64,000 bases of DNA, from contig JAJYLX010000003.1 in the NCBI GenBank assembly GCA_021787495.1, positions 1 through 64,000 of the forward strand, given 5' to 3'. Shown piece by piece: positions 1,280 to 56,726 of this stretch (positions are counted from its first letter, which is position 1; each line of letters starts with the position of its first letter). A program made the translations under genes and the position numbers. This stretch comes from Microcaldota archaeon. GTDB taxonomy: Archaea > Micrarchaeota > Micrarchaeia > Micrarchaeales > Micrarchaeaceae. The notes beneath the pieces are model-generated. The model made no database searches and had not been told where the DNA came from. It was given only the letters and a program-made list of their open reading frames with translations.

Positions 1280-4116
1280 GTCAGGCTTTAGTAACGGAGT
1301 GCTCACAGGTCGCGTGAGCTCCCTGCTTACACACCCATCCTATCGAAGTCGTCTATTGCGACCGCCCTAATGCCTCGTTTCGGGTGCAGCTTCGTCCTTA
1401 GATGCTTTCAGGACTTATCCTCAAGGCGCGTGGCTACCCGGCAGTGCGTTCACAACCGGTACACTAGCGGCGCCGATCCTTCGTTCCTCTCGTATTAAAA
1501 GGATCTTACCCTCTGGCATTCACACTCCCAGTAGATACTACCGTACTGTCTCGCGACGTACTGAACTCAGCTCGTGTATCGTTTTAATGGACGAGCAGTC
1601 CAACCCTTGGTGGCTTGTGCACCACCAGGATACGATAAGCCCATATCGATGTATCAATCCGCCAGGTCGATGCGAACTCTCACCGGCGACGAATCGGTTA
1701 CCTCTAGAGTAACTTGTTTAACAGCTTGGGGCCCCATCAAAAAAGCCTCCAACGTTCATTAAGCCCGCGTTTCCGCTCTGCGTCCCTCGCTCTTCGGGAC
1801 ACAGTCAGCCCTGCATTTGCCTTTATGCTTACCGGCGGGTTCCCAACCCGCCTAAGCAGAGCGTTGGTTACTTTCGTTTCCTTATCGAAAGCAACCGTCC
1901 AGTCTAACTATCCACCTGCTGCTGTCCTCTTCCGAGTAAGCTGCGGATTGAACCAGGAGTGGTGTTACATTGTCGCTCCCCGGCTCCCGAAGGGGCCGGA
2001 TCGACGCTCCCACTTACGCTATGCGTGGAACAATACGCAACAACAACAGGCTATAGTCAAGTTTCATAGAGTCTTCGTTTCCCACTGGGAGATCGTGGCA
2101 TATTCACCACGCAGTGAGTTCACCGGACCCAAGGTTGGGACAGTGGGACAGTCGTTACGCCATTCATGCAAGTCATCTATTAAATGACGAGGTATTACGC
2201 TACCTCAAGAGAGTCAGAGTTACTCCCGCTCTTTGCCAGCGCTTCTTTCCCTTGTAAAGGACGTTCACATACTGGCGGTGAGCAGGCGTCACCCGCTGTA
2301 CTAAGCCTTTCGGCTTTGCGGCGAGTTGTGTTTTAGATAAACAGTCGCTGTCCCCTGGTAAGTGACATCTGCGCATACCGTGCGCAGACATGGCTTGTCG
2401 AAAACTTACGCCACCATTTTGCCGATTTCCCTAACCTTGGTTAACTCCGTCACACCTTGGCCTTTTCAGCCAGCAGCACTTGTACTAGTTCTAGGTACGG
2501 TGCAATGCGGTCGTTGCAGGTTCCTTTTTCACTGTCTCAGGAAATCAGTCCAACAGTTCATTTAGCCGCTTCTCCTCATAACGAGACTCCGCGGCCCTTT
2601 GCACTTTCTTGCGGACCTATCCCCAAGCGTCAGAAATCTGCCTTTTGTTGCCAAACCTACGCATTGCGGGCATGGATATTAACATGCTTCCCTTTCGTGG
2701 CATGGTGATTGGCCTGCCACTTAGGATCGCCTAACTCTCCGCTGACGAGCGTCGCGAAGAAACCCGTGTGCTTTCGGTGTATGGGATTCTCACCCATATT
2801 TGATGTTACTAACACCAGGATGTTCCCTACGACATGGTCCACGCTTGCTCTCGCAGGCGCTTCGTGCCATGCCGAATGCCCTCTTACCAATGCTTATCGC
2901 ATTCCAAGGTCTCGGCACCTAGTTTAGCCCCGTATATTTTCGGAAGGAAACGCCTCAATCGGTACGCTATTACGCGTTTTTTGAAGGATGGCTGCTTCTA
3001 AGCCTACCTCCCGACTGTCTATGGCGTCACCCGCCTTCGTCACACTCAACTAGGATTTGGGGGCCTTAACCTTGGTCTCCGTCTTTGCGGTCTCGCAGCG
3101 CTAGCTTACCCAACGCTGCCGACTCCATGGGTCTACGCAGCGCATGCATTCGGAGTTTGATAAGGTGGCGATGTCTTTCGACACCTCTCCACCTAGTCGG
3201 TCGCTCTACCGCATGCGCAAGCTCGCCATGAGCTATCCTAAAGATACTTCAGAGGGGACCCGCTATTGCCGCGTTCGAGTGGTATATCGCCGCTACCCGT
3301 GACTCACCCAACAGGACATGCCATGACAGGAGGCGGGCCTCCACCAGGCGTTAGCCTAGCTTCGCCCTGGTCACGCGTAGATCACAGCGGCTTCGGGTCG
3401 TAAAGGAGTGACTCGACGCATTTTCATACGCCATGCCTTGCAAAGCTACGCATTCTCGCTTTCGCTACGCGTTTCCGCTCGCCACTCCAATACACTCCCT
3501 GGCTCTTGCTTCAAGAAGAATGACAGGACACTGGTCCATGCATGTCGCTGTTTCCTTTCGGAACTTCGCTTCCACGCACTTCGTCCCTTTCATGCCCTGC
3601 CTTCATGTAACCACCTAGTTTCAGATCTTTTCAATCCCACGCGTGTGGGTGCTTTTCAGCTTTCGCTCACGCTACTTGTTCGCTATCGGTCTGCAGCCAA
3701 TATTTAGGGTTGGGGTTTAATGCCCCCGTGTTCGCACTGGATACTCAACCAGCGCTACTCTTCGCAGCTACCTCCATCGCACTTAACCTACGAGGCTGTC
3801 ACTCTCTTTGGCCGTTCTTTCCAGAACGTTCGGCTCATGCTTTGGAAAGCGTTGCTGCACCACATCTCCCACGCTTTTGCAAGCAGGGATTCGGTTCGCC
3901 CTGTGTGGGTTTCATTCGCATTACTCGCCACATCGCTTTCGCTTTCTTTTCCTGCAGGTACTAAGATATTTCAGTTCCCTGCGTGCGCTTGTCTCACGAC
4001 ATCATTCGGCAATCCCAGGTTCAACGCCCGACTTGCGGCTACCCTGGGCTTATCGCAGCTTGCCACGGCCTTCGTCGCTACTGCAGCCAAGCCATCCCCT
4101 AGGTGGCTTTAAATTT
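1280..4116 (-). rRNA. 23S ribosomal RNA
   Basis: The minus strand contains recognisable 23S landmarks in order: the 5' region with GCAAGCTGCGATAAGCC, the TGAATGGCGTAACGACTG helix-71 region, the peptidyl transferase loop, the A-loop, the GTCGCGAGACAG segment and the sarcin-ricin loop ACGAGAGGAAC. The length of about 2.84 kb fits an intron-free archaeal gene. The ends are inferred from the flanking processing stem and may be off by a few bases. Conserved loops carry several unusual bases (see findings). No 16S or 5S gene adjoins, so the operon is split, as in several archaeal lineages. Confidence 0.95.
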
Positions 4117-7797: not shown

Positions 7798-8283
7798 TCA
7801 GTTCATCAGCAGCACCGCGAGGTTGAGCGATGCCGCGACGACCGTCCAGAGCAGGTACGGCACCATGAGGTACGCCGCGGGCTTCGACACCCTCCAGAAC
7901 AGCGCTATGCATGAGGCTATCGCGATGGCGAGGAGCACGATCACCGCCATGCCGTACGCGGGGGAGCGCGCGCCGAAGAACGCCGCGGACCAGAGGAAGT
8001 TCAGGGCGAGCTGGACAAGGAAGGCGCAGAGCGCCGCCCTCGCCGCGCGGGACGCCTTTCTTCTCTTCCTTTCTGACCAGACGAGGTACACCGCCATGCC
8101 CATCAGCGCGTACAGCGCGGTCCACACCGGGGCGAAGAGCCAGCTGGGGGGTGTGAACGATGGCTTGCTGAGCGATGCGTACCACGTCGGTATCGCGGGT
8201 ATGGTGAAGGCAGACCCGGCAAGGCCGACGAGCTCGCACCCTATGACGAACGCGGCGGCGATGAGCACGCTTCTAGTCCGCAT
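7798..8283 (-). CDS. TspO/MBR family membrane protein
   Basis: This 161-residue protein has five membrane segments and the tryptophan-rich TspO signatures: WYASLSKPSFTPPSWLFAPVW in loop 1 and ALNFLWSAAFFG in a later helix. TspO proteins bind porphyrins and cholesterol-like ligands and act in tetrapyrrole or stress signalling. It is the last gene of a minus-strand operon of membrane proteins, 10 bases after the preceding stop. A basic stretch (SERKRRKASRAAR) lies between helices 2 and 3. Confidence 0.88.
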   Translation of the reverse strand: MRTRSVLIAAAFVIGCELVGLAGSAFTIPAIPTWYASLSKPSFTPPSWLFAPVWTALYALMGMAVYLVWSERKRRKASRAARAALCAFLVQLALNFLWSAAFFGARSPAYGMAVIVLLAIAIASCIALFWRVSKPAAYLMVPYLLWTVVAASLNLAVLLMN

Positions 8284-27842: not shown

Positions 27843-27920
27843 CCTATCGTTGTTTTCTGTAATCCAGGTGATATAAATACGTTTAGCGCGCCTATGCGGC
27901 CGCTGCGGCGTAGGAATAGC

Positions 27921-27969
27921 ATGCTCCCACCGGGAAGTGGCATTCCAGTTAAGTGTCCACTATATATTG
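27921..27969 (+). repeat. 49-bp repeat, copy 1, with tRNA-Glu-end remnant
   Basis: This copy aligns with 28513-28561, with five differences in 49 bases, all transitions. Both contain GCTCCCAYCGGGA, the 3' end of the tRNA-Glu gene at 36674 (13-14 bases, one transition in this copy). With its flanks it folds into a hairpin around CCC-ACC-GGG. The surrounding 27843-28024 has no gene. Confidence 0.6.
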
Positions 27970-28024
27970 TTATACGTACGGCAATATACGATACAAGGGG
28001 GCACACCAGATACATGTATTGTAC

Positions 28025-28429
28025 TCATGCGCGCTTTTTAGGACGGCTCCCTTCATCTTCCCTTAGCTTAAGGGATTCTATAATCTTTCGCGTGATATCG
28101 GATAGTCGAAAACTGCTGGTATCTTTACCAATCCATGCATATTCTGCAATCTCTGCGCTGGGCTGTCCAAGTTGCCCATCTATGTCTGCAAAATAAACAC
28201 GTGCTCTTAATTTATCACCCTTGTGAGGCGTTATGCCTTCAAAATCTCCACAGAATCTGAAGTTATTAAGTTCAGTTCCGGATAGCTCCTCTCTAACTTC
28301 CCTTCGTAGACATACTAAATCCTCCTCGCCCTCCTTAGGTTTACCTCCAGGTAGTATCCAGCTTTCTACCTTTCTAACCAAAAGAAGCCTACTGTCCTGT
28401 ATAATAGCTGCATTGATTGCTACTCGCAT
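28025..28429 (-). CDS. Nudix hydrolase
   Basis: This 134-residue protein has a canonical Nudix box, G-x5-E-x7-REUxEExGU, read as GGKPKEGEEDLVCLRREVREELSG. Nudix enzymes cleave nucleoside diphosphates linked to another group, and the substrate is not predictable here. The ATG is chosen because a TATA-like TTTATATATTT lies about 34 bases upstream. A longer open frame would begin in the neighbouring repeat. Its composition is clearly more AT-rich than the host genes, and it sits between two copies of a 49-bp repeat, so it is likely acquired. Confidence 0.85.
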   Translation of the reverse strand: MRVAINAAIIQDSRLLLVRKVESWILPGGKPKEGEEDLVCLRREVREELSGTELNNFRFCGDFEGITPHKGDKLRARVYFADIDGQLGQPSAEIAEYAWIGKDTSSFRLSDITRKIIESLKLREDEGSRPKKRA

Positions 28430-28512
28430 GTAGCCACAGAGATGCTTTATTGATCCAAATATATAAACTTTGAGGGACTGGGCCTCATTTTTGCCGTCGA
28501 TTTGTTGTTGGA

Positions 28513-28561
28513 ATGCTCCCATCGGGAAGTAGCATTCCAGTTAAATGCCCACTGTATATTA
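28513..28561 (+). repeat. 49-bp repeat, copy 2, with tRNA-Glu-end remnant
   Basis: This copy holds GCTCCCATCGGGA, identical to the 3' end of the tRNA-Glu gene. It forms a hairpin GGAATGCT / AGCATTCC around CCC-ATC-GGG. It lies directly upstream of the Nudix gene. Confidence 0.6.
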
Positions 28562-28580
28562 TCAATATATTTCAATCGCG

Positions 28581-29594
28581 CTAACTGACAATAAATATCC
28601 TGCCATCTCTCTTTTCTGAATATAATCGTTGCAATGCTTCTGCTCCGTCCTCTAGTTTAAATTTCTTCCATGTTTTTACGCGAAGTTTAGCGGACTGCCT
28701 AACCAAAGAGCTAAAATCCTTCAATGGCCCCCCCGTAGTGCCTATAATCTTTGCATGCCTGCCATAGATTGACTGCATATTGATAGGCACTACAAACCCT
28801 GTGCCCTTCCCATCGACATTTATCCAGCCACCGAAGGTTACCAACCTGCCTTTTTTACCCAATATATTTAGGCTGTCTTGCCACATGGCGGGCCCTAGAG
28901 AATTCAATACGACGTCCGCCATTCTCCCACTGGTTAGTCGCTTTATCGCATTTTGGTTTTTTTCCCTACCAATCAAATACTCGGCGCCAAGTTTCTTAAG
29001 CCAGCCTCTTGAGGATACCGCAATTACATTAGCTTTGCGCATCCTTCCAAATTGTACTGCAAACATTCCGGTATTGCCTGAAGCGCCATAAACAACTAGT
29101 GTCTCGTTCCGCTTTAAATCTGCCTCTTTTATGGCATGATATGGGGTTAATGCTGCTATGCCAAGGCTTGCACCAACCTCCCAACTTGTGTTATCGGGAA
29201 GTTTGAATACATTTTGTTCTGGCACAGCAGAATACTCGGCGTATCCACCATTACTATTTTCACCTATCATGCCGCCCCCATCACACATCATCTCATTCCC
29301 AGAGGTGCACATGTCGCATTTACTATCGAAAAGCCAACTGTATACAGATACCCTATCTCCCCTTTCGACCCGTTTAACATTAGGTCCTATCTTCTCCACT
29401 ACTCCAGCAAATTCCGACCCTGCAATATGTGGGGAAGGCGTAAGATTAGACTCGCCAATCACATAGTAGTCTACTGGATTTACTCCCGCCGCAACTACTC
29501 TTATAAGAACCTCATTTCTTTTTGGCTCTGGTGTTTTTATTTTGCGTACCTCTAGGTTCCTAATCCCGGGCTTATTAGAGACCATCGCTAGCAT
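28581..29594 (-). CDS. Zinc-type MDR alcohol dehydrogenase/quinone reductase-like protein
   Basis: This 337-residue protein of the medium-chain dehydrogenase/reductase superfamily has a GroES-like N-terminal domain (VLIRVVAAGVNPVDYYVI, AGSEFAGVVEKIGPNVK), a partial structural zinc lobe (KCDMC, then one Cys, so three cysteines instead of four) and the NAD(P)-binding motif VVYGASGNTGMFAVQFGRM. The substrate is unknown. A TATA-like TTATTTATAC about 38 bases upstream supports ATG 29594 (or the ATG three codons later). AT-rich composition marks it as part of the acquired island. Confidence 0.85.
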   Translation of the reverse strand: MLAMVSNKPGIRNLEVRKIKTPEPKRNEVLIRVVAAGVNPVDYYVIGESNLTPSPHIAGSEFAGVVEKIGPNVKRVERGDRVSVYSWLFDSKCDMCTSGNEMMCDGGGMIGENSNGGYAEYSAVPEQNVFKLPDNTSWEVGASLGIAALTPYHAIKEADLKRNETLVVYGASGNTGMFAVQFGRMRKANVIAVSSRGWLKKLGAEYLIGREKNQNAIKRLTSGRMADVVLNSLGPAMWQDSLNILGKKGRLVTFGGWINVDGKGTGFVVPINMQSIYGRHAKIIGTTGGPLKDFSSLVRQSAKLRVKTWKKFKLEDGAEALQRLYSEKRDGRIFIVS

Positions 29595-29603
29595 TTAAGA
29601 CAC

Positions 29604-29617
29604 CAACCTACTATTTT
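29604..29617 (+). repeat. 14-bp inverted repeat, left arm
   Basis: CAACCTACTATTTT is the exact reverse complement of 30095-30108. The pair brackets a 505-bp segment with the tRNA-Glu fragment, a palindrome and a small gene. The right arm contains the small gene's stop codon. Confidence 0.5.
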
Positions 29618-29642
29618 CTTGTCAATGTATAAATAAGGGACT

Positions 29643-29700
29643 GCTCCCATCGGGATTTGAACCTGAGTTTCAGGGTTGAAAGCCCCGCGTCCTTGGCCGG
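29643..29700 (-). repeat. Degenerate tRNA-Glu fragment (attachment site)
   Basis: These 58 bases match 36675-36732 with two differences. They cover the tRNA from the D-loop to the acceptor end, and the matching stops at the D-loop side. One change breaks a T-stem pair (a C-A mismatch), so the fragment is non-functional and decaying. This is the usual signature of integration into a tRNA gene. Confidence 0.9.
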
Positions 29701-29804
29701 CTTTGTCGTCGTTTTCTAGCTTCATTCTAGCACCGAATTTTGGATAAAGATTCGCAAGCAGTTTTAGCGGATTTGAACCCACCAAATATGGCATAGAGGG
29801 TATT

Positions 29805-29854
29805 TAACCTAGCACGGTTCAGATCGTTAAGCATCTGAACCCAAACCTAGGTTA
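29805..29854. repeat. Composite palindrome near the attachment site
   Basis: Outer arms TAACCTAG (29805-29812) and CTAGGTTA (29847-29854) enclose GGTTCAGAT (29816-29824) and ATCTGAACC (29833-29841) with an 8-base loop. All arms are perfect. It lies between the attachment fragment and the first small gene and may be a recombination-factor or origin site. Confidence 0.65.
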
Positions 29855-29927
29855 GATACCGCCGGTTTTGTCAAATGTTTCTTTTACTAAGGTAAATATT
29901 TATATATTTTAATATAATATTATAACT

Positions 29928-30101
29928 ATGGCTACTTCAATGAAAAAACTACCTTTTAGGAATGGTTACACTATAGACGTTAGATTGAAAGAATTTAGAA
30001 AAATCGTATTTGTTAGAGGAAAACCACACATAATCTTTATACGATTTGATTCTGCTAAAGGGCAACAACTTTTGCTTAAATTAAGAAATAACTCAAAATA
30101 G
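29928..30101 (+). CDS. Small basic protein, 57 residues
   Basis: ATG to TAG encodes 57 residues, strongly basic and beta-rich: MATSMKKLPFRNGYTIDV, RLKEFRKIVFVRGKPHIIFIR, FDSAKGQQLLLKLRNNSK. A TATA-like TTTATATATTTT about 25 bases upstream makes it leaderless. It is the first gene of the element next to the attachment fragment, where excisionase or copy-control genes often lie, so a DNA-binding role is likely but unproven. Confidence 0.6.
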   Translation: MATSMKKLPFRNGYTIDVRLKEFRKIVFVRGKPHIIFIRFDSAKGQQLLLKLRNNSK

Positions 30102-30122
30102 TAGGTTGTTCCAATATAAGTA

Positions 30123-32054
30123 TTATAGTCTTAATTTTGATTCGAAATATCTCTGTGTGTCTTTATCTACAAAATAGACATAACATCCTTTTAATCCTCT
30201 AGTCATTAAAACACGATAAATGTTCCGTATATATTCATCAAACTTTTCTTTGCTATTCTTCCTTCTTAGATAAGGATCTTTATTTCCTTCCTTATTGGAG
30301 ACTAGTTTATTCTTCTCTTTGTCCCATCTCAGATCAGGACCTACTATTACCCCTATATAATCAAATTCGAATCCTTGTGCTGTATAAATACAACCGACCT
30401 GTTTGATTCCCTCAGGTTTATATGCCCATTCATACCATTTGACGTAGCCTTCGGGAGCATTTATGTTCATATGTGTTTCCCATGGCATTTCAAAATCTCC
30501 AATCTTAACATCTTTTACTAGTTTATTATTAGAATCCAATCTTGTTGACCACGGCCAACAATAACCAGCCACGATCCTGGCAGTCATCCCTTTCATAGAA
30601 TTTTTTTGCTTTATTATCTCATAGAGCTCATTCGGAGAAGATACAATTCTAAAGTCAAAATTATCCTCCTTAGTTAAGATTTTCTCTTCGTTATTATGAC
30701 CCAATACAGATTCTACCCAATCCAAATAGTTTTCAGAACCATTGCACCTAAATTGGGATTTTAATTCAGGGACTTCTTCAGCATTTTTACCTAATTTTTT
30801 AGCGGCCTCCCTAATTAATTTTGTGCTACCTATCTCTGCACCACGTATTATTTGTTTATCATCTATAAAGAATATCGATGTTTTTGCACACCTGATTAGT
30901 TGTTCTATTTGTGGCATTTCTGTTCTGTCTTCCCTTTTTGTAAATCTTCTATTTGATGTTTCACCAATTCTATGTGCTTCATCAACGATAAGGATATCAA
31001 GTTCATCCTCTTTGATTCTTGTTGGAACAAATGGCTCTAAGCCAGTAAACAGTATTTTCGCATTTATTTTACCTGCCTTTTGTCTCCTCTCCATTCTATG
31101 TTTTATTGCTTCAATTAGTGGTTTTGATCTTGAAGAAAAAAATATTTTGTAATTTTTATCTTTATGTCCTGCAAATTCTGCCAAAATATGTAGTGCTATT
31201 ACTGTCTTACCGGTGCCAGGTCCTCCCTTTACAATTACTACGCTTTTCTCACCGTTTTCTTCTGCCTTTTTGATTTTATCTACAATTACATTTCTAGCAT
31301 ATATTTGATCGTCTAGTAAGCTAAAATCTGATTCTTTCTTTATAATTCTTGAAGCACTTTCTAGCAACTTTTTAGATGGTTTTAAAGGCGATTCCATGAA
31401 TTTATTAAAAATATCGAATCCATTCTCTTGACTCAATAATTCATTTAATCTGTCGGCCAGTTTTCTAATATCCTCTTTTGTATAAATTGGAAATTTCTTA
31501 ATCAACTCACTATATTTCGGTGCAAAGAGACCTTCACCATCATGTTTTTCATAATTGGGGCAATATGCGTAACCGAATAAGTCTGTGTTACCTTCCTCGA
31601 AAATTTCAACAAATCCGATTAGATAATTATGATAGCCCTGAACTTGTTGAGAAGGATGTGCAACTTTTCTTGTAGCGCCACCAGTATATGTTTCGATGAA
31701 ATTGCCTTCGGAGGCTAAAGCGTCCACTTTTTGCCATTGTTTCAATTCTATATGTATAATTATGCCCTTTTGGTTGTTTTTATTGCCTTTCCCAAATAAT
31801 AGACAGTCGATCCTTTTTTGAGTGTAAGGCACTTGATATTCAAATGCGACATAGAGATTTTTTAGCCCACTTAACTCTATAAGGTTCTTAACAACTTTTC
31901 CAGTATCTATCCATGAATTATATTCAGAAGCTTTTGGGCTTTTACCATACATAGTAGAAAAATTTTTCTTAACTACATCTGCAAATTTATTAATTAATAC
32001 ATCATCAAAGAATATTTGCTGCGTTGAATCATATATGATATCTCGCGTTCGCAT
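30123..32054 (-). CDS. Nuclease-helicase fusion (PD-(D/E)XK plus DUF2075-like)
   Basis: This 643-residue protein has two parts. The N-terminal domain carries a PD-(D/E)XK-like signature: QKRIDCLLFG (Asp about 84) and IIIHIELKQW (Glu-x-Lys about 102-104). The C-terminal ATPase has Walker A GGPGTGKTVIA (about 277), Walker B DILIVDEAHR (about 351), a QFRCNGSENY arginine segment, a YTAQGFEFD motif and a final VLMTRGLKGCYVY motif. These match the DUF2075/Schlafen-like helicase group. The gene starts three bases after the MazG-like stop. DUF2075 proteins are known from defence islands, so an anti-phage or anti-plasmid role is plausible. Confidence 0.82.
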   Translation of the reverse strand: MRTRDIIYDSTQQIFFDDVLINKFADVVKKNFSTMYGKSPKASEYNSWIDTGKVVKNLIELSGLKNLYVAFEYQVPYTQKRIDCLLFGKGNKNNQKGIIIHIELKQWQKVDALASEGNFIETYTGGATRKVAHPSQQVQGYHNYLIGFVEIFEEGNTDLFGYAYCPNYEKHDGEGLFAPKYSELIKKFPIYTKEDIRKLADRLNELLSQENGFDIFNKFMESPLKPSKKLLESASRIIKKESDFSLLDDQIYARNVIVDKIKKAEENGEKSVVIVKGGPGTGKTVIALHILAEFAGHKDKNYKIFFSSRSKPLIEAIKHRMERRQKAGKINAKILFTGLEPFVPTRIKEDELDILIVDEAHRIGETSNRRFTKREDRTEMPQIEQLIRCAKTSIFFIDDKQIIRGAEIGSTKLIREAAKKLGKNAEEVPELKSQFRCNGSENYLDWVESVLGHNNEEKILTKEDNFDFRIVSSPNELYEIIKQKNSMKGMTARIVAGYCWPWSTRLDSNNKLVKDVKIGDFEMPWETHMNINAPEGYVKWYEWAYKPEGIKQVGCIYTAQGFEFDYIGVIVGPDLRWDKEKNKLVSNKEGNKDPYLRRKNSKEKFDEYIRNIYRVLMTRGLKGCYVYFVDKDTQRYFESKLRL

Positions 32055-32056
32055 TG

Positions 32057-32422
32057 TTACAACTCATTATATTTTTTATTCGATCCCTTTGCCTTCGCTA
32101 TTGGATACTTTTCCCTGTTCTTCGCCATTTTCTTATCGAATGCGGTAACAAGGTCAATGTCATATTTTTGAGCTAATCTTATCAGAAAATATAGGGTATC
32201 CGCCATTTCCTCGCTTATTTCCTCTTTTCTCTTAGGATCCTTTAACATAGCTTCCATTTCGGCTTCCGATTTGAATCTGAACGGCTCTAGAAGCTCCGAG
32301 GCCTCAGTAATTACACCTATAGCCAATTCCTTTGGGCTGTGATACTGATCCCAGTTACGTTCATCGCAATGCTTTTTCACTATAGCTTTTAATTGGGCTA
32401 TATTGGTATCTGAATCGTTCAT
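32057..32422 (-). CDS. MazG-like nucleotide pyrophosphohydrolase
   Basis: This 121-residue protein has the all-alpha NTP pyrophosphatase signature: ITEASELLEPF (ExxE) and EEISEEMADTLYFLIRLA (ExxD), and RNWDQYHSPKELAIG before it. Members hydrolyse dCTP or other NTPs to monophosphates. It is separated by two or three bases from the downstream nuclease-helicase gene. A stand-alone MazG next to a helicase-nuclease could drain nucleotides during infection, which is inference. Confidence 0.85.
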   Translation of the reverse strand: MNDSDTNIAQLKAIVKKHCDERNWDQYHSPKELAIGVITEASELLEPFRFKSEAEMEAMLKDPKRKEEISEEMADTLYFLIRLAQKYDIDLVTAFDKKMAKNREKYPIAKAKGSNKKYNEL

Positions 32423-32453
32423 TCTCTCACAATTGTTATCTGATTATAGATTC

Positions 32454-32786
32454 TTAAAGTGCAAACATCTCTTTCAACGCGCTTTTTATTTTATTTGTTT
32501 GGTATTCCTCTATCTTACCTATCTGCGTTCCTGATATTCTGACCTTATCTATAGCTCTGAGTTGGAATACGAGCGCAACACTATTATCTCTTAAATTAGT
32601 TGAGCCAGTCTTATTTATTTGAATAGTGTATGGAAGATTAAGGTGTTCTAAATTGCTTGTTAACGGTATGACTATGTACATACCTAATTCGCTTATGGCT
32701 TTCAGTATTATCGCTGGCCTTGGATTACTCTGCTCGTGTCCTTTACCGGTCCCAAAATCAACATTGTGTATGCTGTACTCTTCCAT
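32454..32786 (-). CDS. MazF/PemK-type toxin
   Basis: About 110 residues from the ATG at 32786: DFGTGKGHEQSNPRPAIIL, YIVIPLTSNLEHLNLPYTIQI, STNLRDNSVALVFQLRAIDKVRI, and a C-terminal helix EEYQTNKIKSALKEMF. These match the MazF/PemK fold. In canonical MazF the motif reads GSEQGGxRPvlIl, and the QSNPRP here corresponds to it. MazF cleaves mRNA at specific sites. The upstream gene ends four bases before it, the usual antitoxin-toxin order. A longer start would overlap that gene. Confidence 0.85.
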   Translation of the reverse strand: MEEYSIHNVDFGTGKGHEQSNPRPAIILKAISELGMYIVIPLTSNLEHLNLPYTIQINKTGSTNLRDNSVALVFQLRAIDKVRISGTQIGKIEEYQTNKIKSALKEMFAL

Positions 32787-32790
32787 GTGA

Positions 32791-33345
32791 TCATTGCCCG
32801 TACCTTCCCAAACTCTCATTACTTATGTTGTCCCACTCTTCCATTTCGCTTTTTAGAGAGTTCATTATCGTTTCACGAAGCTTTTCCGTTAAGAAGAGTT
32901 TCTTTATCGTGTTTGTTCCTCTCCATATGTCCTCCATTTTCAAATGTGGTTTACGTGAATTAAGCTCGATTTCTGCCTTATTTTCATCAAAACCTCTGTC
33001 CCTTTCCAAAAAGAGTAGACTAGCGACTATCTCTAAATCTGTTTGATTCAGAGTCTCCAACAACGGTTTCACTCTTTCTATTTCCCCATATTCTTCCTTT
33101 GTCGGCTTATAATCGCTCTTGCCGTTCACAAAATCTTCTTTGTTACCAAAATAATCTCTTGCCAATTCACGAGAATATGGTCCTCTTATATAGAAATTAA
33201 AATCGCCATATAATTGCTTGCCAATAATCTTTTGAATAATATAAGTTAGCTTTTGTGCCTTTATTCTCGAGTCAAAGCGGTCGCTGTCTATCTTAACTCC
33301 TAATAGATTCAGATATCCTATCAATTTTCTAGTTTGTTCCTTCAT
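32791..33345 (-). CDS. Panacea/YwgA-like protein, candidate antitoxin of MazF
   Basis: This 184-residue protein has an N-terminal helical region with RIKAQKLTYIIQKIIGKQLYGDFNFYIRGPYSRELARDYF, the pattern of YwgA-type and Panacea (DUF4065) proteins (KLxYhxQ, then F-x-x-x-GPYS-x-E). The C-terminal half is charged and helical. It lies directly before a MazF-type toxin gene. Panacea proteins neutralise diverse toxins in known toxin-antitoxin pairs, so it may be the antitoxin. Assignment between YwgA and Panacea is uncertain. Confidence 0.65.
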   Translation of the reverse strand: MKEQTRKLIGYLNLLGVKIDSDRFDSRIKAQKLTYIIQKIIGKQLYGDFNFYIRGPYSRELARDYFGNKEDFVNGKSDYKPTKEEYGEIERVKPLLETLNQTDLEIVASLLFLERDRGFDENKAEIELNSRKPHLKMEDIWRGTNTIKKLFLTEKLRETIMNSLKSEMEEWDNISNESLGRYGQ

Positions 33346-33356
33346 AAAATCCCATA

Positions 33357-33707
33357 CTATTTTTCCTTTTTGTCTTGGTGTATAAATATACTATCAAGCC
33401 AATGCTTAACACTATCGCGGGTTTGCTTGCCAGATTCTGTTATATAATACACAACAACCGTTTTCTCATCTACCTTTTCCTCTTTTGATTCAACATATTT
33501 GTGATCTTTAAGCCAGGCTAAATTAGGTCCTAACGAACCGTCTTCGAGCATTAATGCATCCTTTATGTCTTGGTATGCCACTCCGTCTTCGCCATAATAG
33601 TCGAGCATCGCCAATACGCTTATCCTAGCATACAACAATACACGCCGTAACTTTCTGTCCAGAGAAGAGGGAAGGCTGTTGTACTTTCCATCTACAGTAG
33701 CCATCAT
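33357..33707 (-). CDS. Winged-helix DNA-binding protein
   Basis: This 116-residue protein has a winged-helix layout: LLYARISVLAMLDYYGEDGVAYQDIKDALMLEDGSLGPNLAWLKDHKYVESKEEKVDEKTVVVYYITESGKQTRDSV. The pattern matches PadR/ArsR-like 'transcriptional regulator' folds, including the wing with ITESG. A TATA-like GGTATTTATATCT about 25 bases upstream makes it leaderless. It heads the minus-strand cargo and is a likely regulator of the toxin and defence genes. Confidence 0.78.
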   Translation of the reverse strand: MMATVDGKYNSLPSSLDRKLRRVLLYARISVLAMLDYYGEDGVAYQDIKDALMLEDGSLGPNLAWLKDHKYVESKEEKVDEKTVVVYYITESGKQTRDSVKHWLDSIFIHQDKKEK

Positions 33708-33832
33708 AGTTTGTTATGAATGGTAAGATATAAATACCTTCTTGATGATATATTTCATGGTTACTTTAGCTTTTATAAAATTGCACAAAAGCTTTTTATA
33801 ATATATAGGTTATATAATTTATATGTGATAAT

Positions 33833-33997
33833 ATGTCAGACGAAAAGAAAGACGATAAAGTCGCTCAAGGAATGGCTGCAGGTATCGCGGGTGGAGCAGG
33901 CGTTGGCCTTGTGCTTGGACCCGCCGGTGTGATAGTAGGTGCTATAATAGGTGGCATTATAGGTGCTGCAGCTGGCAACGCGGCTAGAAATCAGTAG
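33833..33997 (+). CDS. Glycine-zipper peptide, 54 residues
   Basis: ATG to TAG encodes 54 residues. An acidic/basic head (MSDEKKDDKVAQG) is followed by one long hydrophobic run rich in Gly and Ala with repeated GxxxG spacing (GIAGGAGVGLVLGPAGVIVG, then AIIGGIIGAAAGN). Such glycine zippers occur in pore-forming class II bacteriocin-like peptides and in small phage or plasmid membrane proteins. The TATA-like TTTTTATAATATAT lies about 30 bases upstream. It begins a plus-strand operon with two membrane proteins. Confidence 0.65.
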   Translation: MSDEKKDDKVAQGMAAGIAGGAGVGLVLGPAGVIVGAIIGGIIGAAAGNAARNQ

Positions 33998-34009
33998 ATA
34001 GCGATCAAG

Positions 34010-34336
34010 ATGGCACTTTGGATTTCTGGACTTTCTGCGCCCGCTGTAGAGGCCCTCGGACCAATAAGCTTGCTGATAGTGGGTTTCTTAGTTGAACGGA
34101 AGTTCATAAGTAGAATGACGATCTTTACAAACACCATCGCACTTAACCTTATGGTCTTTAATCTTACCAGTCCACCAGTTTACCTGATATGGTATGCCAA
34201 CATAGGAATCTTGCTGGGTATAGTGGCACTCATATCGTATGCCTTGCAGACAAGCATGTCTAGAGTGTTTTATCTAATTGGGTGGCTGTATTGTTCTGTT
34301 GTTGTAGCTGCCTTAATCCTTATATTCGCATTCTAG
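34010..34336 (+). CDS. Small membrane protein with four segments
   Basis: This 108-residue protein is almost wholly hydrophobic, with likely helices at about residues 15-31, 39-58, 60-79 and 84-107. A single polar turn (ERKFISR) and TSMSR lie between them. It starts 12 bases after the glycine-zipper stop, so both are in one operon. It could be an immunity or transport partner of the peptide. No family is recognised. Confidence 0.6.
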   Translation: MALWISGLSAPAVEALGPISLLIVGFLVERKFISRMTIFTNTIALNLMVFNLTSPPVYLIWYANIGILLGIVALISYALQTSMSRVFYLIGWLYCSVVVAALILIFAF

Positions 34337-34360
34337 TGGATACTCTAGCAGGTTGATCGC

Positions 34361-35296
34361 GTGGCCAAACATAAATTAATGGCATTAATTAATACGAAGA
34401 GGAACTACTTCGTCCCATTTTTGCTGATCAGCCTTGCGATTATCATCACCAGTTTCTATTACGGCACATACTACTCGGCCTCGAAGTCACTACCATGTAG
34501 TACAACTATTGTGTGCATCACTTCATATACGACTTCTATGTTCAATGGCTATACCGAAACGCTGACAGGGTTAAGTTTTGGAAATGTATACGAAAACGTA
34601 TCATGGGCCATTATGATTTTATTGGCCGTACCGGCGATTGCGATATTTACTGGATATGAGCGATATCTTGGTCTGATGCTAGTCAGCATAATAATATCTC
34701 AGGCCATATTCGTTGTTATTTATCCGACGCTTATATTGCCACATCTGACAAGCACTCCGACCTTTGGCGGTGGCTTGTCGCTATCCTGTACATTTAGCCT
34801 GATAACAATTGTGGCTTTCTTGCTTTTGTATTTTTACAACGTAGAAAAAAATAATAGAACTATAGATAACTGGTCTAGTTTCCTTAAACTGGCTGGCCTT
34901 CCACTAGCAATATTCACGGAGACGCTATATCTCGTTTTGTCCATATCAAACATTCTTTCTTACAGTACCAATCAAACCGAGGCTCTTATATTATCAATAG
35001 CTTTAGAGATTGTTGCATTGCTTGTACTTCTTGGTTATGTTTTCTTCTTTATCTACCAACCACTGAAAAAGAACGCTAGAAAGTATAATATCAATCCAAA
35101 GATACTCACAAAGCGAATTGTGATATTCTGTCTCTTGATAGGGGTCGCCGCTTCTATACTCCTGGCTAGTTATCTGTTGCCCTTTGTTATCTTTTATAAG
35201 GGCCTGACGATAAAAGGACTGTTGAATCCGCACAATATTAGTCTGCCAATCTTTGCCTTAGTTACGTTTGTCCTGTTAAAGGTAAAACAGGCTTAA
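34361..35296 (+). CDS. Polytopic membrane protein with about eight segments
   Basis: This 311-residue protein has hydrophobic stretches throughout and a cysteine pair (LPCSTTIVC) in the first outer loop. A GTG start has a GGTTGAT-like site upstream, and an ATG lies six codons later. It ends the glycine-zipper operon. No transporter signature was seen. The composition is AT-rich, like the other cargo. Confidence 0.65.
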   Translation: MAKHKLMALINTKRNYFVPFLLISLAIIITSFYYGTYYSASKSLPCSTTIVCITSYTTSMFNGYTETLTGLSFGNVYENVSWAIMILLAVPAIAIFTGYERYLGLMLVSIIISQAIFVVIYPTLILPHLTSTPTFGGGLSLSCTFSLITIVAFLLLYFYNVEKNNRTIDNWSSFLKLAGLPLAIFTETLYLVLSISNILSYSTNQTEALILSIALEIVALLVLLGYVFFFIYQPLKKNARKYNINPKILTKRIVIFCLLIGVAASILLASYLLPFVIFYKGLTIKGLLNPHNISLPIFALVTFVLLKVKQA

Positions 35297-35422
35297 CATT
35301 TCTCTTAGACTTAATCGCCCTATCCTATTCTTTCCTTCGGGTCGGCCTGAAACCTGCGGTCTCACAGGCTTCGCCTGCTAGGGCCTCCCAAACTAGCAAC
35401 CTAGCAGTATAAGGCACCTCTC

Positions 35423-35514
35423 GGCGTTTTGAGGGGGGGCAAAACGCCTCATCTAGTAGTCGTAGCCACCGCCCGAAGCGATAGCTTCGGCGCACCCGAA
35501 GGGTGCGAGGTGGC
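35423..35514 (+). ncRNA. GC-rich structured RNA candidate with three-way junction
   Basis: Inside an AT-rich element this stretch is GC-rich and contains only perfect hairpins. First is GGCGTTTTG-(8)-CAAAACGCC (35423-35448). Then an outer stem GCCACC / GGTGGC (35465-35470, 35509-35514) encloses CCGAAGC-GATA-GCTTCGG (35473-35490) and CGCACCC-GAA-GGGTGCG (35491-35507). The last three stems form a three-way junction. It lies between the membrane-protein operon and the integrase. The strand is undecided, because both would fold. Confidence 0.6.
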
Positions 35515-35578
35515 GTAGGCTCGACTCTACTCGATTTTCAGAAAATCTCGTGAAATATGCGGTTTCGCGACTAGTGGT

Positions 35579-35770
35579 GAGTTTTACGAGGGAAAACCAC
35601 CCAAAATCATGCCAAAAGGGGTCAAAAAACTCCACTCGATTGAGTTTTTGCCTTTTCTCTACATGATTTTGCAAAACCGCCATGCTGGTAGCCAAAAATC
35701 GACTAAGGGGGAGTTTTACGAGGGAAAACGCCTATTTTTCTGCCCGAATGGGGTCAAATTTCTCTACATG
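35579..35770 (+). repeat. Paired direct repeats before the integrase 3' end
   Basis: GAGTTTTACGAGGGAAAAC occurs exactly at 35579-35597 and 35711-35729. TTTCTCTACATG occurs at 35654-35665 and 35759-35770, with GGGGTCAAA between them in both modules. So two modules of the same order differ in length (about 87 and 60 bases). They could be recombinase or replication binding sites. Confidence 0.7.
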
Positions 35771-35773
35771 GCC

Positions 35774-36682
35774 CTATTTTTGGCCTTCCATATCTATGAT
35801 ACGCCATTTTAGCCTCTCTGCTTGCTGGGAGAAGGTATTATCTATCTCTCGGTATAGCCCCTGCTTGGTCGTGCTGATGTATGTCTGGGTTACGCCGGTG
35901 CTTCTATGCCTGGCAAACTTGCTGGTAAGCACCACGTTGCCGTTAGTCTGCTTGGCGAAGCTGGTTATGGCGTAATGCCTAAGGCTGTGCGTAGTGAGCC
36001 TATGCAACCTTCTAGGCGTTCTGTTATAGTTGGTCTCATCGCTGGAATCGTAGACCTCATCCAGACCAGTCTTTTGGACGTAGTATCTGAAGCTGTTCCT
36101 CACATAGTCCGTACTTAGATACGGCTCATCCCTATGGCTGTATTTGCCCTCTTCCTTGAAGAAGAGGTATCCATCCTTTTGGATGTGCCTTTCGTACTGC
36201 CTGATGTACTCCAACGTCAACTTGAAGAGAGGTATCGGGATAATAAGTGTATTGAGCGTATGCACCTTTTCTGTCCTTATCTTCAACTCTCTGCTGTTGA
36301 AATCTATGTCCTTGATATTGACCTTTACTGCTTCGCCTATTCTGAGGCCAAGCTGCGCTTGATATTGGAATAACAGTCGAAGCTTCTCGTTGTCTATCAT
36401 TCGAAAGAATAACTGCACCTCCTGTTCGGTAAAGCCTTTGTTGAGGCTTCCGTATTTAGGAGGTTGGTTCTTCGCGAACTTCTTGATGAACTGTTTGTGT
36501 ACTATCTTCTTGATTTGTTTGAATTGTTGGTGTGTAAGCTTAGGTAGTATCGAATACAAGTCGTTTATAAATCTAGTGTATTCGGATTCTTTATTGGATT
36601 TGAACCCATCTTTCTCTCTGTTTTGCTTATTTTGCTTCTTTTTGAACCCGAGCTTGTCTTCGCAAATTGCATTTGCTCCCAT
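35774..36682 (-). CDS. Tyrosine recombinase (integrase) of the element
   Basis: This 302-residue phage-type integrase has a Lys-rich N-terminal arm-binding region, a SAM-like core and a catalytic domain: LGLRIGEAV (Arg about 113), THSLRHYAIT (His-x-x-Arg), KFARHRSTG (second His) and TQTYIS (Tyr about 269). The likely catalytic set R-H-R-H-Y is present. Its ATG lies inside the last nine bases of the tRNA-Glu gene, so it is transcribed with the host tRNA after integration. The gene is not split by the attachment site, unlike SSV-type integrases. Confidence 0.88.
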   Translation of the reverse strand: MGANAICEDKLGFKKKQNKQNREKDGFKSNKESEYTRFINDLYSILPKLTHQQFKQIKKIVHKQFIKKFAKNQPPKYGSLNKGFTEQEVQLFFRMIDNEKLRLLFQYQAQLGLRIGEAVKVNIKDIDFNSRELKIRTEKVHTLNTLIIPIPLFKLTLEYIRQYERHIQKDGYLFFKEEGKYSHRDEPYLSTDYVRNSFRYYVQKTGLDEVYDSSDETNYNRTPRRLHRLTTHSLRHYAITSFAKQTNGNVVLTSKFARHRSTGVTQTYISTTKQGLYREIDNTFSQQAERLKWRIIDMEGQK

Positions 36683-36748
36683 CGGGATTTGAACCCGAGT
36701 TGCAGGGTTGAAAGCCCCGCGTCCTTGGCCGGACTAGACGATAGGAGC
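36674..36748 (-). tRNA. tRNA-Glu (anticodon UUC)
   Basis: A 75-base cloverleaf: acceptor GCTCCTA / TGGGAGC, D-arm GTCTAGTCCGGCCAAGGAC, anticodon loop CTTTCAA with anticodon TTC (reads Glu), and T-loop GTTCAAATC. The 3' half is duplicated at 29643-29700. The gene is the insertion target of the 7.1-kb element and remains intact. It starts four bases after the thymidylate kinase stop. A weak TATA-like CAATAATAAGC lies about 28 bases upstream, within that gene. Confidence 0.96.
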
Positions 36749-56614: not shown

Positions 56615-56726
56615 TGGGCCCGGAGAGATTTGGACTCTCGACATCCGGCTTTCTTCTCTTGACAAAACTCCTACTTGAGAAGTTCGCTATAAGACCGGCG
56701 CTCTAACCAGGCTGAGCTACGAGCCC
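56615..56726 (-). tRNA. tRNA-Ile (anticodon UAU) with an intron
   Basis: A tRNA with a GGGCTCG / CGGGCCC acceptor stem, D-arm GCTCAGCCTGGTTAGAGC, anticodon stem CCGGT / GCCGG and T-loop GTCCAAATC. The loop CTTATA|A places the anticodon as TAT, reading AUA. A 37-base intron interrupts the loop after position 37. It can form a CTTCTC / GAGAAG hairpin, as expected for a bulge-helix-bulge substrate of the tRNA endonuclease. Most archaea use CAU with agmatidine for AUA, so UAU is rare. Confidence 0.88.
56651..56687 (-). other. Intron of tRNA-Ile
   Basis: These 37 bases lie between anticodon-loop positions 37 and 38. The arms CTTCTC and GAGAAG enclose an 18-base loop, leaving short bulges next to the exons. 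The boundaries were chosen so that the exons give a standard 7-base anticodon loop. Confidence 0.75.

Follow-up and report, generated by a model that had tools for sequence, protein, structure and literature searches.

The window analysed here, a stretch of 64,000 nucleotides, contains an AT-rich segment adjoining a tRNA-Glu gene, which raises the question of whether this segment is an integrated element and, if so, by what mode it integrated and what keeps it in place. Repeat comparison of the region revealed one direct repeat that was the longest by a wide margin, with one copy inside the tRNA gene, and the following boundaries were assigned:

29,642-36,732: integrated element, its ends being two 59-bp att copies in tRNA-Glu(TTC) context
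36,674-36,748, minus strand: tRNA-Glu(TTC), called concordantly by ARAGORN and Rfam, with the att core at 36,674-36,732
29642-29700, minus strand: att copy at the far, left end, 59 bp long and matching the tRNA-Glu copy at 57/59 positions (97% identity)

In the whole genome, matches of that closeness to the att core occurred at two places, and two further tRNA genes matched at 80-84%. The GC content was 39% inside the element versus about 54% in the 3-kb flanks, the right flank having about 60% and the left flank (27.9-29.6 kb) a lower value of about 44%. The earlier note had described an AT-rich element with a tyrosine recombinase at this tRNA gene, and the att repeat, the tRNA gene, the recombinase (PF00589, E=1.1e-12) and the GC contrast together bear this out; the degenerate 58-bp repeat that it gave was indeed a repeat, but one of 59 bp and 97% identity. 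It was also noticed that the low-GC left flank (27,900-29,640) carried NUDIX and zinc oxidoreductase genes, the oxidoreductase having few close relatives; this flank may represent an earlier insertion at the same tRNA that has since decayed. Elsewhere in the window, Rfam identified a tRNA of 112 nt at 56,615-56,726 that ARAGORN missed, apparently containing an intron and probably with the anticodon TAT.

A search of genome contigs identified the relatives of the source as Candidatus Micrarchaeota MAGs, a few of them labelled Marsarchaeota, in agreement with the DPANN host guessed earlier from the letters. The tmk-tRNA-Glu neighbourhood was kept in 15/15 relatives inspected, and no integrase was found there within the fetched flank in these 15, several of the contigs ending close by. 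Scars were nevertheless present at tRNA-Glu in relatives, L094 retaining the first ~20 int(C) codons and L083 and L088 shorter traces. Since the relatives mostly keep tmk-tRNA-Glu without an insertion, the empty sites that the earlier note had proposed to look for do exist, and the gene block is not fixed in all relatives, the situation that it had named as speaking against an element.

Careful examination of the two ends revealed that the integrase gene was divided between them, with the following features:

35774-36682, minus strand: int(C), the tyrosine recombinase body of 302 aa, starting at the tRNA 3′ end and pointing inward
29588-29725, minus strand: int(N), 45 aa, with ATG at 29725, MKLENDDK, the att core in frame, flanking sequence and a stop
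29731-29734, minus strand: Shine-Dalgarno-like GGTG 5′ of the int(N) ATG, read from the sequence and conserved in sister elements
29799-29841, minus strand: putative int promoter, a TATA-like box and an inverted repeat at positions conserved in sister elements
29799-29809, minus strand: TATA-like GGTTAAATACC, part of the putative promoter
29816-29841, minus strand: inverted repeat GGTTCAGAT..ATCTGAACC, part of the putative promoter
29763-29781, no strand assigned: GGATTTGAACCC repeat, 63 bp inward of the left att, a candidate arm site for the integrase
36590-36608, no strand assigned: partner GGATTTGAACCC repeat, candidate arm site, within the int(C) coding sequence

The left att copy lies in a minus-strand open reading frame in phase with the integrase, and joining the element ends gave a single open frame of about 326 codons, in which MKLENDDK, probably starting at the ATG at 29,725, precedes the codons supplied by the tRNA-Glu 3′ segment (GQGRGAFNP..QIPMGA) and, after them, the integrase body. 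The only in-frame ATG of int(C) itself (36682) sits inside the tRNA 3′ end. Catalytic residues R114, K139, H232-x-x-R235, H259 and Y268 were intact, the R-K-HxxR-H-Y set being invariant in 23 sequences. An AlphaFold run on int(C) with 23 relatives reached a pLDDT of 40, and the model was discarded. GGTTCA(A/G)AT motifs, which resemble the tRNA T-arm, were observed at fixed distances on either side of the att core in the L028 junction and others, and some of them fell inside the integrase coding sequence.

Complete sister elements were identified through their second att copy. An ATG-started, in-frame far-end peptide was found in 12 of the 14 complete elements, which lie at tRNA-Glu, tRNA-Leu and tRNA-Gln genes and include the one studied here. 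A chance open frame at the junction was rejected. Of the start peptides, the six from tRNA-Glu elements all had the form M[KE]LE[NK]D[DA]K, and five from tRNA-Leu elements were of the MARNIGVKQLGN type; two of the seven tRNA-Leu elements (L056 and L059) had a junction that was out of frame and an att copy containing indels. The Glu start peptide, searched as a degenerate DNA pattern, was matched in 16/99 genomes and its reversed control in 0; 12 of these 16 matches were in frame across the whole core, the remainder being broken relics or having another core. Alignment of the far ends of sister elements revealed the inverted repeat, the TATA-like box and GGTG directly before the ATG, and in the integrases of the family a single reading frame crosses the tRNA 3′ end. 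Because promoter, ribosome site and start codon all lie in the conserved far end, they stay there after integration. A natural joining of int(N), core and int(C) was seen in L118/L119, as a relic only (L119 = G042 C2, reverse-complement position 8178); the L119 relic suggests that a more recent element inserted at the scar of an earlier one and that the tRNA-Glu site has been used at least twice.

From the recurrence in sister elements, together with the pattern matches and their empty control, we infer a suicidal (SSV-like) mode of integration. The attP was located within the integrase gene, as in the suicidal class, and the intact integrase gene of the pNOB8 type was not found. An alternative is a conventional (pNOB8/lambda-like) element, in which int is intact, starts at the tRNA ATG and is expressed by read-through from the tRNA, the far-end peptide being accidental. 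The 302-aa int(C) with its complete catalytic residues, its in-frame ATG at 36682 and the two tRNA-Leu elements whose junction breaks the frame agree with such an arrangement, and because only ~25 N-terminal residues are lost and the tRNA supplies an in-frame ATG, some residual int(C) activity by read-through is possible. However, in independent tRNA lineages the far ends repeatedly show the conserved TATA-like box, the GGTG, the ATG and the in-frame peptide, with the core frame preserved; no ribosome site is evident for the open reading frame of the integrase body itself, and no methionine codon occurs in the core segments shown for the Leu and Gln members. We therefore regard a conventional element as unlikely.

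The integrase itself differs from those already known to act in this way. It matched PF00589 and, weakly, XerA; its sole PDB sequence match was XerA of P. abyssi (4a8e, E=0.0027, residues 74-185). No match to PF16795 was obtained at E<=1, nor in any of the relatives (0/99), in a search whose control was positive in Sulfolobus acidocaldarius among others. Neither the R...KxxR...Y active site of SSV nor the R...YxxR...Y site of pNOB8 was matched, HxxR being present instead. With its PF00589/XerA-like domain, no PF16795 and an R-K-HxxR-H-Y site, the integrase thus appears to work like the SSV type without being one. XerA is a chromosome-dimer resolvase acting at dif, which does not target tRNA genes and whose gene is unsplit; the element integrase, while matching that of P. 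abyssi in sequence, is tRNA-targeting and split. Compared with the integrases of SSV1, pTN3 and pT26-2, it is alike in being a tyrosine recombinase with attP within int, a split into int(N) and int(C), att sites of 40-60 bp matching a tRNA gene, and widespread relatives that could act in trans, but it differs in 1) being PF00589/XerA-like rather than PF16795, 2) having HxxR rather than KxxR, 3) having ~25 residues removed, and 4) residing in a DPANN host. According to a review of archaeal recombinases published in 2021, PF16795 is the domain of all three suicidal integrase families described; suicidal integration is treated there as a single event within that family, found mainly among hyperthermophiles, and DPANN is never mentioned (PMC8371274). 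The literature searched linked suicidal integrases to other archaeal lineages only, for the most part hyperthermophiles, and not to DPANN or Micrarchaeota, an absence that is no proof of novelty.

Taken together, the sequence evidence favors, with a probability of roughly 0.78, a small integrative element of Micrarchaeota with SSV-like suicidal integration, a reading that includes rescue in trans, persistence through cargo and a role for a structured module. Sequence comparison places attP of the predicted excised circle within the 5′-terminal part of the integrase gene, so that the promoter, the ribosome site, the ATG and the MKLENDDK codons would lead into the tRNA-Glu 3′ segment and then into the catalytic body. 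By the same comparison, integration into the 3′ part of the tRNA would strand int(N), with its promoter and start, at the left end and would place int(C) after an intact tRNA-Glu. Integrase expression would thereby be silenced and the element locked in place, and re-excision would need an integrase supplied in trans by a co-resident relative or a new arrival, as the copy number of the family and the precedents of SSV2 and pTN3 (PMC8371274) suggest. The same genome carries at least two more family integrases, C1 (in a 5.2-kb element at tRNA-Leu, L026) and C6, which could be such a source. The GGTTCA-type repeats may be arm sites, by which the family could make use of the T-arm in many different tRNAs.

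The family to which the element belongs is common. Of 99 related genomes, 68 had integrase relatives, with as many as a dozen in one genome; the tRNA genes occupied were those for Glu, Leu, Gln, Val, Pro, Ala and Arg. Among sister elements of 1.9-7.4 kb, the only fixed parts were the split integrase, the far-end promoter and the structured non-coding module, the cargo being varied. These shared parts bear on whether the element is the decayed remnant of a provirus or satellite, stripped of replication and structural genes. Pfam and PHROGs scans recognised no replication or virion genes, just as the earlier note had stated, and IMG/VR yielded a single, very distant integrase match, both of which would suit a remnant; yet many sister elements are complete, with att repeats and the same minimal plan, and because random decay is not expected to leave a shared plan, we consider a remnant highly improbable. 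The satellite carrier suggested earlier found no backing either, these scans having revealed no credible capsid, packaging or helper-hijack gene. Cryptic integrated elements of thaumarchaea are likewise small (the smallest 2.6 kb) and integrase-bearing, in many of them no replication gene is identifiable, and their varied cargo includes restriction-modification; the study describing them found no signature genes specific to these elements (PMC6563490). The present elements are similar in size and cargo plan, whereas the split integrase, the far-end promoter and the structured module are their shared signatures.

The module, whose core folds strongly (z = -5.0) in a non-coding region, was located downstream of int:

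35302-35770, minus strand: structured non-coding module, with a branched core at 35423-35535 and two CATGTAGAG words

As the R1 model of sub-type A modules scored the window copy weakly (11 bits, E=0.19), this copy was tested with a profile from which it had been left out, and its homology to the sister modules was recovered (E=5e-8). The model from 13 sub-type A copies was found in 34/99 genomes, and by our own count 39 of 52 module places had a family integrase no more than about 6 kb away, several others being beside an integrase fragment or a tRNA. In an alignment of 44 distinct module sequences, itself fitted to the model, 95.2% of cells were paired versus 80.1% after shuffling, double changes occurred in 36 of 43 pairs, and sliding the partner destroyed the signal; an unfitted alignment of 13 sequences gave 93.0% paired and 22 double-change cells versus 7.3 shuffled. 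Rfam returned neither a gathering hit nor a hit of credible E-value. Covariation and homology thus substantiate the structured RNA of the earlier note as a conserved, structured, non-coding module.

Most likely, judged from its sequences, the module is a non-coding RNA from the int strand. It is rather less probable, though a serious alternative, that it acts as DNA, either as an origin or as hairpins for single-strand transfer or recombination, which would be compatible with a suicidal integrase. The CATGTAGAG words are repeated both directly and inverted, one module copy is inverted relative to int (L041), the C-rich hairpin loop is reverse-complemented, and hence G-rich, in L033, L036 and L059, and an origin recognised by the host would fit because no replication gene is shared among the elements. 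Against a DNA element, besides the strong RNA folding of the core, c(UNCG)g loops show a strand asymmetry of 66 versus 7 and GU wobbles exceed AC by 68 to 34, counts that favor an int-strand RNA but are biased by the model; owing to this bias in the GU/AC excess, RNA is not proven over single-stranded DNA. In alignment A1, the G-rich loops of L033, L036 and L059 look like an inverted hairpin. As RNA or as an origin, the module may work in the cycle of the element itself.

The remainder of the element is occupied by cargo:

29928-30101, plus strand: 57-aa open reading frame, whose homologue (46%) adjoins the MazG-helicase pair in L173
30123-32054, minus strand: 643-aa fusion of a PD-(D/E)XK-like nuclease (RID...ELKQW) with a Schlafen group 3 helicase (PF09848; SLFN-g3 E=1.4e-94)
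32057-32422, minus strand: MazG-like pyrophosphohydrolase (PF12643, 2e-13)
32454-32819, minus strand: MazF/PemK toxin (PF02452 E=8e-20; PDB MazF matches)
32791-33345, minus strand: candidate antitoxin, 184 aa, weakly like the DarG C-terminal part/YwgA, overlapping mazF by 29 bp
33357-33707, minus strand: winged-helix regulator (PF13601, 1e-9), leading a conserved trio
33833-33997, plus strand: glycine-zipper membrane peptide, 54 aa (ORF scan and Pfam)
34010-34336, plus strand: small membrane protein, 108 aa, no family
34361-35296, plus strand: membrane protein, 311 aa

The nuclease-helicase, the MazG-like enzyme, the MazF toxin and the winged-helix regulator had all been named in the earlier note, and the matches listed above confirm them. 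The order of regulator, candidate antitoxin and mazF was fixed in nine further loci at identities of about 40 to 91%, the candidate antitoxin always lying between the other two; a tenth locus, at a contig edge, had the last two genes only, and in L161 the trio adjoins tRNA-Glu. The family assignment of the Panacea/YwgA-like partner proposed earlier is weak, the PADLOC match to DarG (2.4e-4) being the sole support; the candidate antitoxin had no Pfam family, and ten homologues gave nothing consistent. No MazE-type antitoxin was found beside mazF. Compared with MazEF and DarTG, the cassette thus pairs a MazF-family toxin with a partner weakly like part of DarG, with neither MazE nor DarT. The pair of MazG and PD-(D/E)XK-helicase was kept in all three other loci, the RID-like..ELKQW motif was kept in 4/4 nuclease domains, and the pair gave partial PADLOC matches to PDC-S41 (3.5e-25), Nhi (1e-13) and AbiO (1e-12). 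The membrane operon had no clear relative in the 163 genomes searched with its largest protein (311 aa).

Protein families and gene order make it likely that the MazF cassette and the MazG-helicase pair have defence or toxin-antitoxin functions. An element locked in by its own integration would persist by such cargo, the winged-helix-regulated MazF and its DarG/YwgA-like partner serving in maintenance or abortive defence, and the MazG and nuclease-helicase pair, by its families, in nucleic-acid-directed defence. Sister elements at tRNA-Glu carry Type II/IIG restriction-modification genes and an OLD-family nuclease, with an Eco57I-like methyltransferase in L028 and a Type IIG enzyme together with the nuclease in L030. 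Some other sisters have metal-resistance or metabolic genes; those read from the sequence were for a copper ATPase, cation efflux, and arsenate-reductase-like and mercuric-reductase-like proteins. For the tRNA-Glu branch, then, defence is probably a cargo theme, but it does not define the family. It was also noticed that small open reading frames beside int in L053, L054 and L059 resemble, on reading, a DUF4258/DUF2283 toxin-antitoxin pair, and that, judged by eye, the C-terminal part of the HTH protein (2734-3435) next to the Eco57I-like methyltransferase of L028 resembles Panacea/YwgA.

The most informative features of this locus are the split integrase, the promoter and start that stay at its far end, and the element family, and the earlier note missed all three. 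A wider proposal, to which we give somewhat less than even odds, is that a DPANN lineage evolved suicidal integration anew, separately from the PF16795 integrases, that this mode drives a family of cassette-like minimal elements whose excised form would be run by a new structured RNA without a replication protein, and that recognition of GGTTCA in the T-arm would permit switching between tRNAs. If a PF00589/XerA-like integrase does act in this way in Micrarchaeota, the suicidal mode would have evolved more than once, and its selective advantage would become testable by comparison. The module, absent from Rfam and common to dozens of sister elements, adds an RNA or DNA element. Being compact, present in 68/99 genomes and loaded with defence, toxin-antitoxin or metal-resistance genes, the family may be a main vehicle of gene transfer in these tiny genomes.
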